Part shown: piece by piece, positions 8,682 through 42,704 of the stretch | Numbering within the stretch: position 1 is the first letter of the stretch | How the letters are laid out: each line of letters starts with the position of its first letter | Assembly: GCF_038396675.1 (NCBI RefSeq) | Contig: NC_088926.1 | Coordinates: 13,557,001 to 13,621,000, forward strand | Origin: Hydra vulgaris | Lineage: Eukaryota; Cnidaria; Hydrozoa; Anthoathecata; Hydridae | Length of the DNA: 64,000 nt | Direction: 5' to 3' | Notes under the pieces: model-generated | What the model was told of the DNA's origin: nothing | The model's input: only the letters and a program-made list of their open reading frames with translations | Database searches by the model: none | Position numbers and translations under genes: made by a program

Positions 8682-9299
8682 CACAGTGGGCCAGTGACTG
8701 GACAAAAGTATAAAAACCAAAGTTAGAATTTTGATATCATAATGGTTTTAAACCATTATATAGATATTATAAAACAATTTAAAACCGTTTATATACACTT
8801 AAAGTTTTAATGAATATACTAATGATGTTGTTAAAGTAATCGTGAATGTAAATTAGAAAAATATATATATAAAGAGGAAATTGTTCTTTAAAAATCGATG
8901 GAAATAAATACCTTTCACATAAAATATTGCACTTTTTAAAATATTATGTTATAACTCTATATATTATCTGAATTTTAAAAGTTGTTAGACTAATATTGGT
9001 AAATAATTAACACATTTATAGCTACTTTAAATATGCTTAATATGTTATATTTTATTGTTTAATTTCTGCTTTTAAAATACTTTTTTTTATTGCTACATCT
9101 TGTTTTTATACTCTGATATTTTGAAGCTTGTATATGCCTGCTTTTATAATTTCATAAATCTGGCTGCTACTAGGCGCCACTTTGATTTTCTTTCACATTT
9201 GAAATTTTCACTTAACAAAAAATCTGTAATTCCGCTCAAAAATTTTTATTTGCACAAAATTTTAAGAAATGCGGAAAAAATATAATACGGTCTTACTCA

Positions 9300-9320
9300 T
9301 ACTAAACAATAATATATGTA

Positions 9321-9400
<80 letters not shown>

Positions 9401-9656
9401 TAAACTAATTTAAAACATCAGATAATACAAATTCTCTCAATACTAAATAATTTATTTGAAATTTTCTTGATATTATTAATTAATTGATATTAATAATAAA
9501 CTGAATTATATTATATTATATGCTGATGATGCCGGTGCCTATTACCCGGCGAAAATTTCAAATAAATTATTTATTATTGAGAGAATTGGTATTATCTTAT
9601 GTTTTAAATTAGTTTATATATATATATATACTCTCATACAAGATGTCAACATATAA

Positions 9657-9730
<74 letters not shown>

Positions 9731-9745
9731 CATATATATAATATA
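9300..9745. repeat. (TA)n arrays flanking the foldback
   Basis: Near-pure TA runs at about 9310-9395 and 9660-9735, with ATACATAC variants at the edges. Confidence 0.95.
9401..9616. mobile_element. Foldback MITE inserted between TA arrays
   Basis: Inverted arms of about 66 bp: AAACTAATTTAAAACAT..TTGAAATTTTC on the left and the complementary GAAAATTTCAA..ATTAGTTTA on the right. A loop includes GATGATGCCGGTGCCTATTA. Both sides are (TA)n, as expected for an element that targets TA. No coding sequence. Confidence 0.75.
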
Positions 9746-10311
9746 ATTTTTTTTTTTTTTGTGCCGGAAAACAAGTTTATCTAGCTATGTGTAATATCAT
9801 GTGTAATAACACTAGTTAATCATATTAAACTTAAATAAGTTTCGCTTTACGCAAGCAAGTAGTGAGGATCTCATAATAAAACATGTGCTAAATTGTGTAC
9901 ATAGCACAGATAAACCATACGCAACTACACCTTTTTGCATTTAAGTTGGCCAAATTAAAGTGAAAACTGACCAACTTAAACGCAAAATGGTGTAATAAAA
10001 GTTAGTTGCTAAGCAAAATTTGACATCCATAGCAACTAAATAAAAATATATTCACTTTTTTAAAAAGCACGACCTCATTTTGATACTCATATAAAATTTG
10101 GTGAACATAGCACTCGTAAAAATATCTGCAAATATCAAAACTAGGTTTTTGCTATCCAAATTAGATATCCATGGCAACGAATTATAAAAATAACACCTTC
10201 ATAAGAAGCGCAGATATCATTTTATTACTCATCCTACTCTTAGTCAATATTGCCTTAATATTTAATTAGTTATAACTTTTGTCCAGTAAAATTAAATTCT
10301 GGCCCACTGTG

Positions 10312-18620: not shown

Positions 18621-18798
18621 CTGATATAACTCAACAAAATATATTTAAAATATATTATTAGTATATCAACATAAACAATTTTTAAAAAAATTCTAGTTTA
18701 ATTACATTTATGCATATTTAAATTTAATGATCTTCAATTATAATTATTCTACTTAACAGCAAACTTATAATTACTAAAATAAAATTTACAAAAATCTT

Positions 18799-20682
18799 AC
18801 TGAAGGTGAATTTATCAAAAAATCCGAAATAATTCCTAAAGATAAACTTGGTGAACTAAATAGAATTGTACAGATTTTTATTTCGAAAGTGAAAAATAAG
18901 CTTAAAAAATATTGTAGAAACTATGAAATGCTTTTAAAGTTCGAAAATAATTGGCTCGGAAAAAATCTCATTAATTATAGTGTGTCTTTTCATCCTAGAC
19001 CTGGAAGACCAATTAAGGAATGGGGAGATCTTTGTGAAAGAAGTAAAAGAGCAAAGATTGCAGATTTAGCTAATGAACACCATGTAGCTCTATCTCTTGC
19101 TGCATCAAAGAGTGCTAAATCAGCAGAAGAAAACGATTCAGCTTATATTTTGAAGAGAACTTCTAAATGTGTTGATGTAGCCCAGATGAGAAGAAGTATT
19201 GATTCCTTGACTCCAACAACTATGAAACTAGAGGAGGCTCTTGCTCTGAAAACGCAAACTGACTTTAGTGATTCACAATACCAAATGTTGAGAAATTCAG
19301 CTCTTTCTCACAATGTAAAAATATATCCTAGTCTTAATAAACTTGGGGAAGAAAAGCTGAAATGTTATCCTGAAGGTATTCAATTTAATGAAATGTCAGC
19401 AAAATGCTCATTACAAAGTATGCTAAATCATACAGTTACTAGGATTATAGATATGATTGATTTAAAGGAAAGTTGTAAAGTTGAGATGAATGGAATTTTG
19501 TATGTGAAAATTGGGTTTGATGGAGCTTCAAGTCAAAGTATTTACCAACAAAAATTTGATAGCCTTAATTTTACTAAAGAATTAAAGCAAGAAGATAGCC
19601 TGTTTAGCACAGCTATTGTACCTCTTCTGTTTAAAGTTGAAAACATTGACTTGTGGAAAAATTCTAAAAGTTCTAGCTGCCATTTTTGTAGACCTCTTCA
19701 CCTGCAATATAAAAAAGAGACATCAGAGTTGTGCAAAGAAGAAGAAGCTGATCTTCAAACTCAAATGAATCAGTTAAAACCCTTCTCAAAAGATTTGAAT
19801 ATTGCTGGTGCAGTAATAACTATTAAGGTTACTTTTAAAATTGATATGACCATGTTTGATGGAAAAGTAATAAATTCATTGACTGACACAAAGTCAACTC
19901 AGTCTTGTAATGTGTGTGGTTGTAAGCCCAAAGAGATGAATGATATAGAATTAGTTAAAAAAAAGCCTGTTAATGAGAAAGCCCTTAAACTAGGTATTTC
20001 AAATTTGCACTGTTGGATAAGATCTTTTGAATTCATCTTACATTTAGGTTATAAAATGGAAATCCAGAAGTTTCAAGCCAGAACTGAAATAGAGAAGCTA
20101 ACTGTAAATTTAAAGACGAATTTTATTAAATCAAAGTTCAGAGAAAAGTTGAGTCTCATTGTTGACCAGCCCAAAGTAGGCTTTGGTAATAGTAATGATG
20201 GAAATACTTCAAGAAGAGCATTTGAGAACTCTGCGATTTTCTCTGAAATAACAGGGGTTGATATGGAAGTTATAAAGAGAATGCACATTGTCCTTATTAC
20301 AATATCCTCTGGGTACCATATCGATAGTAATCAATTTGAAGTTTATTGTACTGATACAGCTAAAATTATAGTTAATAAATATGGTTGGTATATAATGCCA
20401 CCCAGTGTTCACAAAATTCTGATATATGGTTGATCCATTTCAAAGCAATTTGATTTGCCAATTGCCCAATACTCTGAGGAAGCTCAGGAAAGTCTAAACA
20501 AGCAAATCCGAAATGTAAGGTTACATCACACGACAAAAATATCAAGAATTAATACAATGAAAGATCAGATGCACTACCTTTTGATTAGATCGGATCCAAA
20601 AATCTCAAGCATTTCATTTGTAAAACACAGGAGTTATCAAGGAAGAACTTTGCCTCCAGAAGTAGTGAACTTATTAGTAATT
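18799..20682 (+). pseudogene. Transib (RAG1-related) transposase, copy 1, one in-frame stop
   Basis: The frame is open from about 18799 to a TGA at 20431-20433 and then continues in the same frame to about 20682. Motifs in order: GRPIKEWGDLCERSKR; CYPEGIQFNEMSA; IGFDGASSQS (first Asp); CHFCRPLHLQYKKETSE; MTMFDGKVINS (second Asp); CNVCG; SNLHCWIRSFEFILHLGYK; GFGNSNDGNTSRRAF; and, after the stop, QYSEEAQESLNKQI (Glu). This order matches Transib transposases and the RAG1 core: SCDGMGD, GYDEKL, CxxC, LHC, SEGNESGNK. A single TGA separates the Glu from the rest, so the copy is probably inactive but recent. It is the closest relative, within the window, of the copy at 30821-32814. Confidence 0.85.
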
Positions 20683-20737
20683 TAAATTGTAAAAAGATTT
20701 TAATATTCTGACTTGTTTATTTTTGTATTATAGATTG

Positions 20738-20955
20738 CGTTAAAGACTCATAACGCGCTTTGTTAAGCGTCTGCGCGCATTTAGCAAATTCGCGCGCGTT
20801 GAACGCGTGTGCAAGTCTTAAACGCGTGCGTGAGCGTTTGTGTAATAATAAAATAATGTTATATTTTGGGTCAAGGAAGCTAAGTTTTTTACTAAAAATA
20901 TTATTTACAAATTTTAAAGTCCTCTAACGCGTGTTTTGACGCGTACATGTGCATT
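20738..20955. other. CpG-rich cluster of ACGCGT motifs in the Transib 3' region
   Basis: At least four ACGCGT sites (about 20803, 20822, 20926 and 20938) and many other CGCG/GCGC steps in an otherwise very AT-rich region. The function is unknown; it might be a separate inserted repeat. Confidence 0.6.
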
Positions 20956-21159
20956 ATACGGGTAATAAGTGCATGTAAAAAAAAATTTAAGTTGCTAATT
21001 CGAATTCTTGACCCCAAAAACCCCATTTTGATGCATAGCATAAGCTTAATGTACATGTAGTTAATAGTTAAATAATTTTTGCCGCTTTTAACTTAATCTG
21101 GGTCACTGTGCGTCCTGAGGCAGCCGCTCCAGGCCTCGCGCTTAGCAAGGTCTCCTAAG

Positions 21160-30196: not shown

Positions 30197-33100
30197 CACA
30201 GTGCCTCACAGATACGAAAAAACGGCAAAAACCCTATTAATTTTTAAAATTTTTTTTGATGTTTTTTAACTTTATCTTGATTGTTATAAGCATACTGAAC
30301 AAGGTAAACCCATTTTTTATGATTTTGTAAATTTTTACTCTTTTTGTGAGCTTGTTATGCCGGTTGTTTGTGGGCAAAAATTTACTAGAAATTTTAGAGT
30401 TTTCAAGGAGATCTTAAAATTGTCACAAAATGGTCATTTTTAAAAATTTTTCTTTCATTTTTTCGGTGAACATCATATATATATTATATCATCCGGTAAG
30501 TAACTGACATTGGACTTTCATCGACACCAAAAATTAATGTTCGAATTTCACAATTTGTGAAAAAATTAAAAATTTTCAGAAAATAATATTCACAATATTT
30601 ACTTTTTCTAAAAATGTCCACACTTGTCCACCCTGAATTTTGATGGGGAACATCTTGAATATATACAGGAATGTCCGGAAAAAAAAACCCGCCCCAAAGT
30701 AGCACGTTTTTGAGAAATTGAATTTTAAAGTTTTTTGCAATTAATAAGAAATCCGCAAAAAGTTTTTTAAAAATCCAAAAAATTAATTAGTAATATGTGC
30801 CTTTGTGATTACATCTCAAAATGAAAATAATAGACTTGATTCCCAAAGTAAGAGAAATTTGTATAATTACTAACAAGGATATTGTGAGCCTCCTTTATGA
30901 GGAAATTTTGATATCAGAAGGTTTGGATGGTGAAAAAGTGCATAGTGAAAAATTAACAGAAAAAATCCGAATTTTGGTGATAAAATTGAAAGCTAAGTGG
31001 ATTGCAGTAAACAAAACATATGACAGGCTGTTAATGAAAGAAAAGAAATGGTTGCAAACCGAAATATAAATTGTTATGAAAGCTGACAATGTAAGCAAAA
31101 AAGAGTTCAGTGGAGGCCGACCAAAGAAAGATTTGAAAGATCTAGGAGAGAGAAGTAAGCGAACAAGAGTTGTTGGATTATCTGCGCATGATCCAGAGGT
31201 TTTAGCTCTGGCTGCTGTTAAAAGTGCAAAATCATCAGGTGACTTACAAGACTTTGCTTATGTGGTTAAAGAGTCTATTCAGAAAGCATCTGAAATCAGA
31301 AAAAGTATGGACAGCAAGGAACCGATAATGATGAGTGAGAAAGAAGCACTTTCATTAAAAGTTAATTGTGATCTCAGTAATGATCAGTATCAAATGATAA
31401 GAAACTCCTCAATCAAACACAATACCAATATTTATCCAACATTACATGCTCTATTCAAGGAAAAAAGTAATTGTTATCCAGAGGACCTTGTTGTAACTGA
31501 AACTTCTGCTGAAAGTAAATTACAGTCCATGGTGAACCATACTCTTAAAAAAGTTATTGTATTAAGTGAAGACAATTTAAAAACTCTGGATACAGATCAA
31601 AATGTGCTCAATGGTAGTTTTATTCTAAAAGCAGGGTTTGATGGTGCATCAAGCCAAAGTTTGTATAAACAAAGGTATGATAACACAGACATTGAGGAGG
31701 CTAAAAAAAATGAAGAATCCCTTTTCCAAACTGCAATTGTACCTCTTAAGTTAAGTGTAGAAAGTAAAACAATTTGGGAGAATAAGAAACCAAATAGTTC
31801 TCATTTTTGCAGACCTCTTCGTCTTCAATACAAAAAAGAAACCACAGAACATAGCAAGTCAGAAGAAAAACACATTCGTGATCAGATGGCTGATTTGGAA
31901 GATTATGTTGAGATTATTACACTTGCGGATGGAAGAAAAGTCAGTATCAATATAAAATCTCATGTTGAACTAACCATGTTTGATGGCAAAGTGGTTAATG
32001 CCTTACCAACACAAAATCATCTGCAAGCTGCAATATTTGTGGTGCGAAACCATCAGAAATGAACAAGCTAGATCTAGTTAAAATTAAACCTGTGAATGAT
32101 GATGCTATGTCCCTTGGTTTATCATCATTGCATTGTTGGATTAAATGTTTTGAATACATTCTTCATTTAGGCTACAGACTGGAGATGACTATTCCAAGGA
32201 CAGATGTCAGGTTAGCCGAAGATAAGGTACTTGTTCAAGCTAGAAAAAAAACTATTCAAGATAGGTTTAGAGCAGAACTTAGTTTACTGGTAGATGTTCC
32301 GAAAACTGGATTTGGGAATACAAATGATGGTAATACTGCCCGAAGAGCATTCATGCATGGTGAGGCTTTTGCTGACATAACAGGAGTTCAGGTTGAGTTG
32401 ATTCTCCGGGTGAGGACAGTTCTTCAAGCTGTTTGTTCAGGGTATGACCTAGATATTGATAGATTTAGCCAATACTGCAATGAGACTCTAGCCTTTATAG
32501 TTAATAACTATGATTGGTACAGAATGCCTCCAACTCTTCACAAACTTCTAGTTCATGGACCTGCAATTGCTGAAAATCTAGAACTACCCATTGGTTATTA
32601 TTCTGAGGAGGCTCAGGAGGCCCAAAATAAAGTGATAAGACATGCTGGGTTAAACCATTCATGCAAAATTTCCAGACTCAATGTAATGAAAAATCAATTT
32701 CAATATTTGCTGATCAGAACTGATCCAGAAATTTCGTCGATCAACTTCATAAAACACAAATCTTCCAATGGAAACCCCTTGTCTGAACAAGTTCTTAACT
32801 TGCTGAAACACTAAGTTTAGTTTTTTTGTTTAAATCTAAATTATATTGTTACATGTTATATATGTTATATGTTACAACATACAGAAATTGTAGGTATTTG
32901 TTTCTGAATAATGCAATCTTTATTGTTTTCACTGTTAACTGACAAAATCAGCTGTTATTAAAGGATTATATGTAGAGTGTTTAAAAACAATGAAAATTTG
33001 TCACTTTTTATGTAAATAAACTATATATATTTATGAATTTGTCTCTATAAGTACAATAAAAAACGACAGAATAGCATATTGAGAAAGTGGGAAAAAATTC

Positions 33101-39997: not shown

Positions 39998-40002
39998 CAC
40001 TG

Positions 40003-42549
40003 CACAGTGGGTCAGAAGCCGGCAAAACCCTATAGAAAAGTTTTTAAATTTTGAAATTTTGAAAAATGCAAATTTTGCTCAATATATTAATAAGCCAGAA
40101 ATTATATTTTATTAAAAAATAATTTTTCAATAAAGCGCCATATTTGTTGTTTAAATATTTCCTTAAATACTTTTTATCAATAACAACAAAAAAGTGTAAA
40201 AATTTTATTTTTTTACATCTTTTGAAAACTTTGATTTCTTATTTTAAAGAAGTTTAAGTTTATATTTTAACTTATAAATGACTTATATAGTATTATGTTA
40301 ATATTTAAATCACATAAAAATTTTTTTTTTTCGCATTTTATATAAATGACAATCTCTTAAAAATGGATAGGAGATGTCTTATGAATTATATAATGGAAAA
40401 TAATTTACTACAAAATGATGATTTACATGCAAAGATTTTGAGTTTTGTTTCCCAAAGCAATTTTAAAGAATCTAATGATAACTTGTCAATTATTTCGAAA
40501 TTCATTTACCAAGCTAAAAAAAAGTGGAAAAAATCGAATAGAACAAGTGCAGTATTTTTTTATTTGAAAAAAGATATAAAGATAATATAATATAAAGATA
40601 ATATAAAGATAATATTATACTTTAAGGTGGACGCCCTTCGATTTTGTTTGAAGATGCGTCTGTGAGAACTAAAGATCGCATAATTAAAGAGCTTTTGAGT
40701 AAATATAATTTAAACGAACTTTTATATGCAGCAAGTAAATGTTTGAAAAGGGATAAAAGGTTTATAGAAGCAAAAGTGGTTAAAAAAATATACAACAAAG
40801 AATTATCGACAGAATCACTTCATTCAGAACAATCATTAGCGATAGTCTTAGATGCTAATTTATCCAAAGAAACTTATCGGCATTTAAGGAACAATGCTCT
40901 TCCATTCAGCTCTCTATAACCATCCTATCATATTGTAAAAGAGGCTAAAAATAAATGCTACCCTGAAAACATTCAGGTCAGTGACTACTCTGCAGAGGTT
41001 CCATTACAAGCTCTTCTTTTTCATACTGCATCAAGAAAATGTTCAGCTTATAGTGTTGTGTTAAATTCACCTGTGCTTAAAGATTGTACTAAACTACTTA
41101 TAATATACAAAGCTGGTTTTGATGGTGCAACAGGACAATCTGTTTATAAACAACTGTCAGATGTTTCTAGTGAACTTCATACAGATGAATCACTTTTCAT
41201 AACTTGCTTGGTTCCTCTAGAACTATATTGTTTCAAAGATGACAAAAAACAGGTTGTTTGGAGAAATCCAAAACCATCGTCAACTAATTACTGCAGACCT
41301 CTGAGATTTAAATATAGAAAGGAATCAAATGAAGTAATTCTTGCAAAATATGAGTCAATTATGGCTTCTATTAAAGAAATAACATTATCTGTTGTACCTG
41401 TTTTATTGGAGGACAGTACAACAAAGGAAGTTGAAATACAGCATATTGTAAATTTAACAATGATAGATGGAAAAATTCAAACTATTATTTCCACAAAAAT
41501 GCTGTTCAGTGTGTGGTGCATCTCCAATCGAAATTAACAATTTATCTTTAGTTCAAAAAAAAACTTTAGAAGGCAATATAAAACATGGCATTTCAACTTT
41601 GCATGCTTGGATAAGGTTTTTAGAATGTATGCTCCATATCTCTTATAAGATGCCGATTATGAAGTGGCAGGCTAGAAATCAAGACGAAAAAAATATTGTT
41701 AAACTGAGAAAGCTTGAAGTCTGTGCTGAATTTCGAACAAGGATAGGTCTTGTCATAGACCAACCGAGAATAGGTGGGGCAGGTACATCAAAGGATGGCA
41801 ACGCAGCTAGGCGATTTTTTCAGCAATACGATGTCTCAGCTAGTATAATGAACATCGATGTAGATCTTATGAAAAGGCTTCATATTATTCTGGCCACAAT
41901 ATTAAGTGGTTATGAAATTAACTCATCCAAATTTAAAACATTCTGTTGGGAAACTGCTTCGCTCTATGTATTCCTGTACCCTTGGTATCCTATGACCCAA
42001 ACACTTCATAAAATTTTGATTCACGGCTATGAAGTCATCGAACTATTTACTCTTCCATTAGGTATGTTTTCTGAAGAGGCTCAAGAGGTTACCAATAAGG
42101 TTTTTAAGATTTTTCGTGAAAATTTTACAAGAAAATGCGATCGGAAAAAAAACAATATAGACCTTTTTCATCGCCTTTTATGTGCATCTGATCCTTTAAT
42201 TTGCACATTAAGAAAGAAGATACATAACAAAAAAAAAAGTCTACCATCTGGTGTACTTGAACTATTGCAAGAGCCAACGATAGAATACTCTGCGTAAAAC
42301 ATAAATTTAAATAATATCCTTGTTGTTAATTTTGTTGGGTAAAAACGGAATTTTTTGTAAATGGAAAATAAATGAGTTTTGTAATAATTTGCGTAATTAT
42401 GTAATAAAATTTGAAGTCTTTAAAAAACAAATGTTATTTTTTCCACAAATTATGTTTTTCAATATAATAAACTGTTTCTAATAAAAAAAAATAAAAAAAT
42501 TTTAGATTTAGAGGTTTTGGCTAGAAAATGTCACTTTTGACCCACTGTG
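40003..42549 (+). mobile_element. Transib copy 3, complete, with asymmetric RSS-like ends
   Basis: Left end: CACAGTG, 13 nt (GGTCAGAAGCCGG), CAAAACCC. Right end (inverted): CACAGTG, 23 nt (starting GGTCAAAAGTGAC), CAAAACCTC. Both flanks are CACTG (39998-40002 and 42550-42554), a 5-bp duplication as expected for Transib. 2547 bp in total. The heptamer equals the consensus V(D)J recombination heptamer and the inner block resembles the nonamer ACAAAAACC. This is the only Transib copy here with both ends and a clean target duplication. Confidence 0.92.
40363..42297 (+). pseudogene. Transib (RAG1-related) transposase, copy 3
   Basis: More divergent than copies 1 and 2. ATG 40363 starts an N-terminal region that ends in a stop near 40588. 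A GGRPSILFEDASVRTKDRII stretch follows near 40626. In the second frame there is an in-frame TAA at 40917-40919 and a 1-nt insertion in an A-run near 41497. Core motifs: CYPENIQVSDYSAEVPLQAL; AGFDGATGQSVYKQ (Asp 1); YCRPLRFKYRKESNEV; LTMIDGKIQTI (Asp 2); CSVCGASPIEINN; LHAWIRFLECMLHISYK; GGAGTSKDGNAARRFF; MFSEEAQEVTNKVFKIFREN (catalytic Glu); KCDRKKNNIDLFHRLLCASD. These match the Transib family closely, including the SEEAQExxNK block that corresponds to SEGNESGNK of RAG1. Inactive through three lesions; the triad is preserved. Confidence 0.9.
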
Positions 42550-42704
42550 CACTGCTTTGCTTGTGTATGTATTCAAAATATGCTGATCAAATGTTTGTAT
42601 TGGAAGTATGGTTTTTAAATGTGTCATAGATGGTTATACTATTTTCTGATCTGTATTTGTGTGTATAAATGTAATAAGTTCATATGCTTTGAAATAAGTT
42701 CATA

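Follow-up and report, generated by a model that had tools for sequence, protein, structure and literature searches.

The window analysed here, a stretch of 64,000 nucleotides of Hydra vulgaris DNA at positions 13,557,001-13,621,000 of contig NC_088926.1, carries at 40003-42549 a copy of a Transib transposon. The heptamer CACAGTG stands at either terminus (40003-40009 on the plus strand and 42543-42549 on the minus strand, both read directly in the sequence), and the element is flanked by the target-site duplications CACTG at 39998-40002 and 42550-42554. A second word, CAAAACC, begins 13 nucleotides past the left heptamer (40023-40029, plus strand) and 23 nucleotides from the right heptamer (42513-42519, minus strand). 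These heptamers, offsets and duplications had been described in an earlier sequence-only reading of the element, together with the remark that the spacers become 12 and 22 when counted one base earlier; both descriptions were confirmed in the sequence. Below we refer to the two kinds of end as near and far, and to the family to which this copy belongs as family A.

Four open frames lie within the window copy, all on the plus strand and all taken as pieces of a transposase that is now split over several frames. The N-terminal piece (40363-40590) has DUF3078 as its sole Pfam match, under the cut-off, and residues 9-76 of the family E transposase gave a weak tblastn match over 40339-40545. The next piece (40644-40919) was recognized by comparison with family E. 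Just 5' of it, and in frame, is a GGRPSIL motif that also occurs in family A copies and that, by motif comparison with the portion of Tao et al. 2022 covered (PMC9435367), is predicted to be of the nonamer-binding-domain type. The catalytic piece (41058-41537), with GFDG and TMIDGK, and the C-terminal piece (41467-42297), which contains SEEAQE and lies in a different frame, were both placed by alignment. From the alignment we take GFDG and TMIDGK to hold the two catalytic aspartates and SEEAQE the catalytic glutamate. The best-scoring piece reached 17.9 bits against the Pfam RAG1 cut-off of 25.

The window copy is approximately 0.8 kb shorter than full copies. Approximately 0.7 kb of this was lost at a 13-bp stretch that occurs twice, as a direct repeat, in full-length family A copies; the junction lies at 40335-40347 on the plus strand, where positions 333-345 of the element used as query match the full-length copies twice. 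Also missing is a second A-rich block, ACAAAAAAG, at left-end offset 22. The right 2,217 bp, including flank, are 99.7% identical to another copy approximately 28 kb away (L002) and the left part is 92.5% identical to it, so that the window copy looks chimeric; abortive gap repair and gene conversion are possible causes. The element is a dead, internally deleted cut-and-paste transposon of the Transib (RAG1-type DDE) kind.

Altogether the window holds Transib-type insertions or fragments at five places, each of a different type, some asymmetric and some symmetric (1448-2384, 8682-10311, 18778-21110, 30197-32811 and 40003-42549). The first is a family D fragment, joined at a 4-base overlap from 1448-2133 in forward and 2130-2384 in reversed orientation. 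We considered it as a near-type end located 3' of the gene and rejected this, since it is an inverted 5' end; it therefore provides no natural near/near element. The second, at 8682-10311, is another asymmetric element (W2) with the end alignment CACAGTG-13-ACAAAAGT / CACAGTG-22-ACAAAAGT. No transposase match was found inside 8682-10311 and no matching target duplication around it, the flanks agreeing at just three of five bases. The near end of W2 (8682-8707) reads ACTGGACAAAA, one base fewer than the ACTGGAACAAAA contained in the standard 12-RSS, possibly by chance. The third insertion encodes a family F transposase with one in-frame stop between two pieces (18778-20682, plus strand) and ends in a 3' heptamer at 21104-21110 (minus strand) of the layout CACAGTG-22-CAAAAATT; its 5' end was not found, and both ends of the family are known from another copy. 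The fourth, of family G/H, has an H-type 5' heptamer at 30197-30203 (plus strand; CACAGTG-22-CAAAAACC) and a broken transposase at 30953-32811, and its 3' heptamer was not found.

The genome searched comprised 911,502,276 bases (911.5 Mb) in 15 contigs. A DNA search with family A, in which 40 of 434 candidates were scored, returned 114 matching pieces, and 30 loci were examined. A recognizable left end was present in 25 of the 30, and L004, L005, L006, L023 and L026 were left out of the left-end counts. CAAAAC stood at offset 13 in 23 of these 25 left ends, the word being mutated there in L002 and L020, and at offset 23 in 29 of the 30 right ends, the one other (L010) having it at 22. That the 13/23 layout was a chance feature of one copy is rejected by these 25 left and 30 right ends. 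When the right end was left free to slide by one base, the 5-bp target duplication was exact in 21 of 25 copies and had one mismatch in the other four. Most copies with both ends measured approximately 3.3-3.4 kb. Two loci (L012 and L024) have common flanks and may be a single insertion that was duplicated. Because the copies of family A share descent, the weight of the argument rests on differing end types and not on agreement among these copies.

The longest open stretch among the 30 loci encodes 511 amino acids (L019). This transposase matched HzTransib (6pqn) with an E value of 4e-93 over residues 20-499 and RAG1 weakly, and scored 25.2 bits against the Pfam RAG1 profile, for which the cut-off is 25. 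Family A thus displays the Transib traits of 5-bp duplications, CAC..TG heptamer termini and, at L019, a DDE transposase resembling the RAG1 core.

The layout of one near and one far end is found in six end types of the Hydra genome: A, B, C, D, E and W2. Family B has its near end (13) at the 5' side and its far end (23) at the 3' side with GTGCCAAAAT at either end, and its target duplication reads CCTAG in L032/L055. A B-type 3' end was present in 13 of 24 loci found with the RAG1 profile, with the word at offset 23 in 12 of them and at 14 in one (L035). In eight more B copies the near 5' end was seen in five, including one with a spacer of 12 (L092); the duplications of these five were exact in one and one base off in four. 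The offset of 14 in L035 (minus strand from 2163) is produced by a 9-base deletion. In family C the sides are swapped, the two copies having the far word (22) at the 5' end and the near word (13) at the 3' end, with target duplications that are exact in one case (CATAT) and agree at four of five bases in the other (AAGTT/GAGTT). Family D returns to near 13 at the 5' end and far 22 at the 3' end, with the word TGGAAATAG at both ends and, in three copies, the duplications TGCTA, CCCCT and CATAC.

Family E likewise has near 13 at the 5' end and far 22 at the 3' end, with the word TGGACAAAAT at both ends and the duplication CAATG in L059. Ten further copies were sampled, eight of which had both ends and exact 5-bp duplications; one had no recognizable 5' heptamer and one no 3' end in the stretch examined. 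Another copy (L058) showed no end in the stretch examined. Of 68 matches scored among 8,750 candidates, 56 belonged to family E and 12 to family A, and 37 of the 56 had no stop in the matched frame (for example L059, 770-2749 on the minus strand). As judged from these frames and from the sampled copies with both ends and exact duplications, family E would be a young, perhaps active, high-copy Transib. According to the part of PMC4411706 covered, an autonomous Transib usually has one copy or a few.

At least three Transib end types of the same genome are symmetric, with 22/22 spacing (F, H and I/J). The duplication of family F is CGACG in one copy, and one of the two copies has a 3' end only. 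In family J, a first copy has CGACG and a second CGACG/CGATG. The ends of family I are nearly equal in sequence to those of J; L105 supplies the 5' end and L107 the 3' end, and no end pair with a matching duplication was found at either locus. In family H the single copy with both ends has duplications differing at three of five bases, and the other copy has a 3' end only. A further type, F', has degenerate ends of about 23/21 and the duplication CGCCG. Over 20 matches with 96-99% identity were obtained for family K (protein P0003), but the 693 + 545 bases examined did not show its ends, and the family was left out of the counts. We had considered that Transibs might be symmetric everywhere in this genome, which the six asymmetric end types reject, or asymmetric everywhere, which F, H and I/J reject. 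The few duplications of F, J and F' (CGACG, CGATG/CGACG and CGCCG; L099/L100 and L109-L114) have the form CGnnG, a form seen in none of the 21 exact family A duplications.

For each end type the two ends were aligned without gaps beyond offset 9, and P values were obtained by shuffling. In all six asymmetric types the best shift between the ends was +10 (A and B) or +9 (C, D, E and W2), with P values of 0.14 for A, 0.0005 for B, 0.022 for C, 0.028 for D, 0.0025 for E and 0.001 for W2. The defining trait of asymmetric-end Transibs, a second block displaced between the ends, was therefore seen in six of six types, family A taken alone giving P=0.14. An earlier run with five types agreed with these results and gave P=0.09 for family A by itself. 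The best shift was 0 in the symmetric families F, H and J (P=0.0075, 0.0005 and 0.0005) and -2 in F' (P=0.21). As aligned, the spacers to the first base of the word are 13/23 in A and B and 13/22 in C, D, E and W2; counting the word from one base earlier makes those of A and B 12/22.

Each end thus consists of CACAGTG and a short common stretch followed by a family-specific word of the type (C)CAAAA(CC), which lies approximately 13 nucleotides in at the near end and 22-23 nucleotides in at the far end, approximately one helical turn apart. Compared with the nonamer ACAAAAACC, the words GCAAAACC, CCAAAACC, CCAAAAT, ACAAAAT, ACAAAAGT and GAAATAG match in part only. The word varies between families and yet is largely the same at both ends within each family, as is expected if one DNA-binding domain reads both ends. 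On visual inspection, TTTT occupies roughly offset 13-19, the position of the near-end word, in five of the six far ends; the family A far end used in this comparison has TCTT in that place, and most other A copies have TTTT.

The sequence-only reading had proposed that an asymmetry resembling the 12/23 rule may already exist in a cnidarian Transib family. The asymmetry itself stands: it amounts to approximately one turn of DNA, holds throughout the family and is found in six end types. The likeness to the 12/23 rule is supported in part only: the spacers are 13/22 or 13/23 and not 12/23, and the near ends also carry an A-tract at the position of the far block, which the transposase may read. 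Among family copies, for which equal spacing or an unconserved block had been named as contrary outcomes, neither was encountered, with 23 of 25 left ends at 13 and 29 of 30 right ends at 23. The comparison with other Transib families that had been suggested showed that the layout is not general, F, H and J being symmetric at 22/22 in the same genome.

We favour the reading that the family has asymmetric two-part ends and that its transposase probably pairs one near with one far end. The RAG1-like catalytic core of each transposase subunit would read and cut the heptamer, an N-terminal nonamer-binding-like domain would read the displaced word, and one near and one far end would be joined in a synaptic complex similar to that in which RAG pairs a 12-RSS and a 23-RSS. 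GRP or GRKP is present in the N-terminal region of the A, E, F and G transposases (G read from DNA), and in the portion covered Tao et al. 2022 (PMC9435367) describe that region as equivalent to the NBD and GRP as conserved there. Neither D nor the C pieces read contain the motif, although C and D are asymmetric. Also against near/far pairing are the weakness of the family A shift when taken alone (P=0.09 and 0.14), the variation in spacers (12 in L092 and 14 in L035) and the mismatched flanks of W2.

A possible but rather unlikely alternative is that the ends are functionally symmetric, the signal at both being an A-tract approximately 22-28 nucleotides from the heptamer and the near word an extra subterminal site. 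An A-run of at least four at offset 20-29 is indeed present in the near ends of all six asymmetric types, so that both ends may carry a far-type signal. Tested against internal sequence, these runs gave P values of 0.057, 0.162, 0.111, 0.027, 0.123 and 0.036, which combine to about 0.0015 (Fisher's method, calculated by hand with the families taken as independent). CAAAAAA occurs at offset 18-33 in 20 of the 25 family A left ends, and the symmetric families F, H and J hold an A-run at about 13-19 in addition to CAAAAA at 22. Nevertheless, A-runs are common in this AT-rich DNA and, taken singly, all six P values exceed 0.02. Moreover, it is the near word, together with the G-containing bases at its start, and not the A-tract that recurs at both ends of a family, at a shift of 9-10; family D reads TGGAAATAG at both ends. 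The position of the AT-tracts is thus similar at the two ends and that of the G-containing word differs by one turn, and from sequence the transposase could read either the tracts or the displaced word.

A broader version of near/far pairing holds that unlike ends are the ancestral Transib state, kept across the deepest split seen in this one animal genome, that the transposase depends on having one end of each kind, and that F/G/H and many insect Transibs have lost this requirement. We regard it as doubtful. Our tree had 18 rows, of which the C and G rows are pieces covering 27-28% of columns; the C branch is long, and H and J are absent. C and D separated from the rest at 100/100, together with two relatives of D. 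E grouped with K (100/99), A with the Hydra protein P0004 (100/100) and F with the G piece of the window (100/99), and F and G joined insect Transibs at a weak fork (89/83). If the root is assumed to lie on the long branch, asymmetric families fall on both sides of it and the sampled symmetric ones in one group. This does not show a single loss of asymmetry, because insects are reported with both symmetric and asymmetric Transibs (PMC8355894 and PMC8289069, in the parts covered). If the ancestral version were true, a 12/23 rule at the level of the transposon would have existed before RAG2-based V(D)J recombination; the covered parts of the same two papers discuss whether unlike ends arose earlier than RAG.

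Two further explanations fare worse. That the displaced word is a regulatory site with no role in pairing, such as a promoter or transposase operator close to the gene's 5' end, would suit A, B, D and E, in which the near end is the 5' end, but in family C the near end is at the 3' end, and every asymmetric type has the word, or a closely similar form, at both of its ends, which makes this reading very unlikely. Least probable of all is that the ends resemble each other through functionless inheritance or because one A-rich word among many was picked by chance: copies of one family agree by shared descent and the family A shift alone is not significant, but this shift is found in each of six end types, with transposases down to 23-25% identical (A, B and E against D), with words that differ between families and match within them.

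Asymmetric Transibs have precedents, and the inference of asymmetry is accordingly not new in kind, because it is described for insects (PMC8355894) and for Subgroups I and II (PMC9435367) in the portions of these papers covered. Kapitonov and Jurka 2005, as cited in the covered part of PMC8355894, found Drosophila Transib5 and Anopheles Transib2, N1, N2 and N3 to be 12/23-asymmetric. Those elements resemble the Hydra families in their CAC-type heptamer ends, in an A-rich second block at approximately 12 and 23 and in having the asymmetry within one element; they differ in host and in spacers of 12 or 23 ± 1 as against 13 and 22-23 in Hydra. In the portion covered, Tao et al. 2022 (PMC9435367) report asymmetric TIRs for all Subgroup I Transibs and both kinds for Subgroup II, the asymmetric two-part TIRs being alike to those described here. 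Their tree takes in the Hydra vulgaris Transibs HvuTransib-9_HMp and HvuTransib-7_HMp, which are probably the same as, or sister to, the families found here. The layout of each Hydra family is not named in the main text of that paper, as far as covered, and we found no per-family spacing of Hydra Transibs set out in the part of the published literature covered.

HzTransib of Helicoverpa zea, the match of the family A transposase, has a CAC-type heptamer and 5-bp duplications. Its TIRs, in contrast, are called symmetric with little nonamer similarity in the covered part of PMC8289069. The ends of the Hydra elements share with the signals of RAG1-RAG2 the identical heptamer CACAGTG (consensus as given in that part of PMC8289069), an A-rich second word and two unlike spacers approximately one helical turn apart; they differ in having spacers of 13 and 22-23, where those of RAG are 12 and 23, and in a word only partly like the nonamer. 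RAG follows a 12/23 pairing rule; near/far pairing of the Hydra ends is a proposal. RAGL transposons also have two-part asymmetric TIRs and 5-bp duplications but carry a RAG2-like gene and have other words and spacers (27/31 in ProtoRAG, PMC8289069; 4/13 in AanRAGL, PMC9435367; both papers as covered).

What may be new is the contrast between asymmetric and symmetric families within one genome, together with a young asymmetric family that has dozens of open transposase frames. The origin of the 12/23 rule is an open question, and near/far and equally spaced Transib families coexist in one Hydra genome. With dozens of stop-free family E frames at hand, it can be asked directly whether a Transib transposase prefers unlike ends.

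Relatives were also sought by scanning genome-contig and viral-contig collections with an alignment (A1), which gave 26 and 43 pattern matches, respectively, none of them encoding a relative. A protein labelled as from a Rickettsiales bacterium (P0013; a metagenome-assembled genome, 4,001-base contig) shares 94% identity with the family A transposase across 466 residues. It is probably host DNA in a bacterial bin, and calls for caution with reports of bacterial Transibs.
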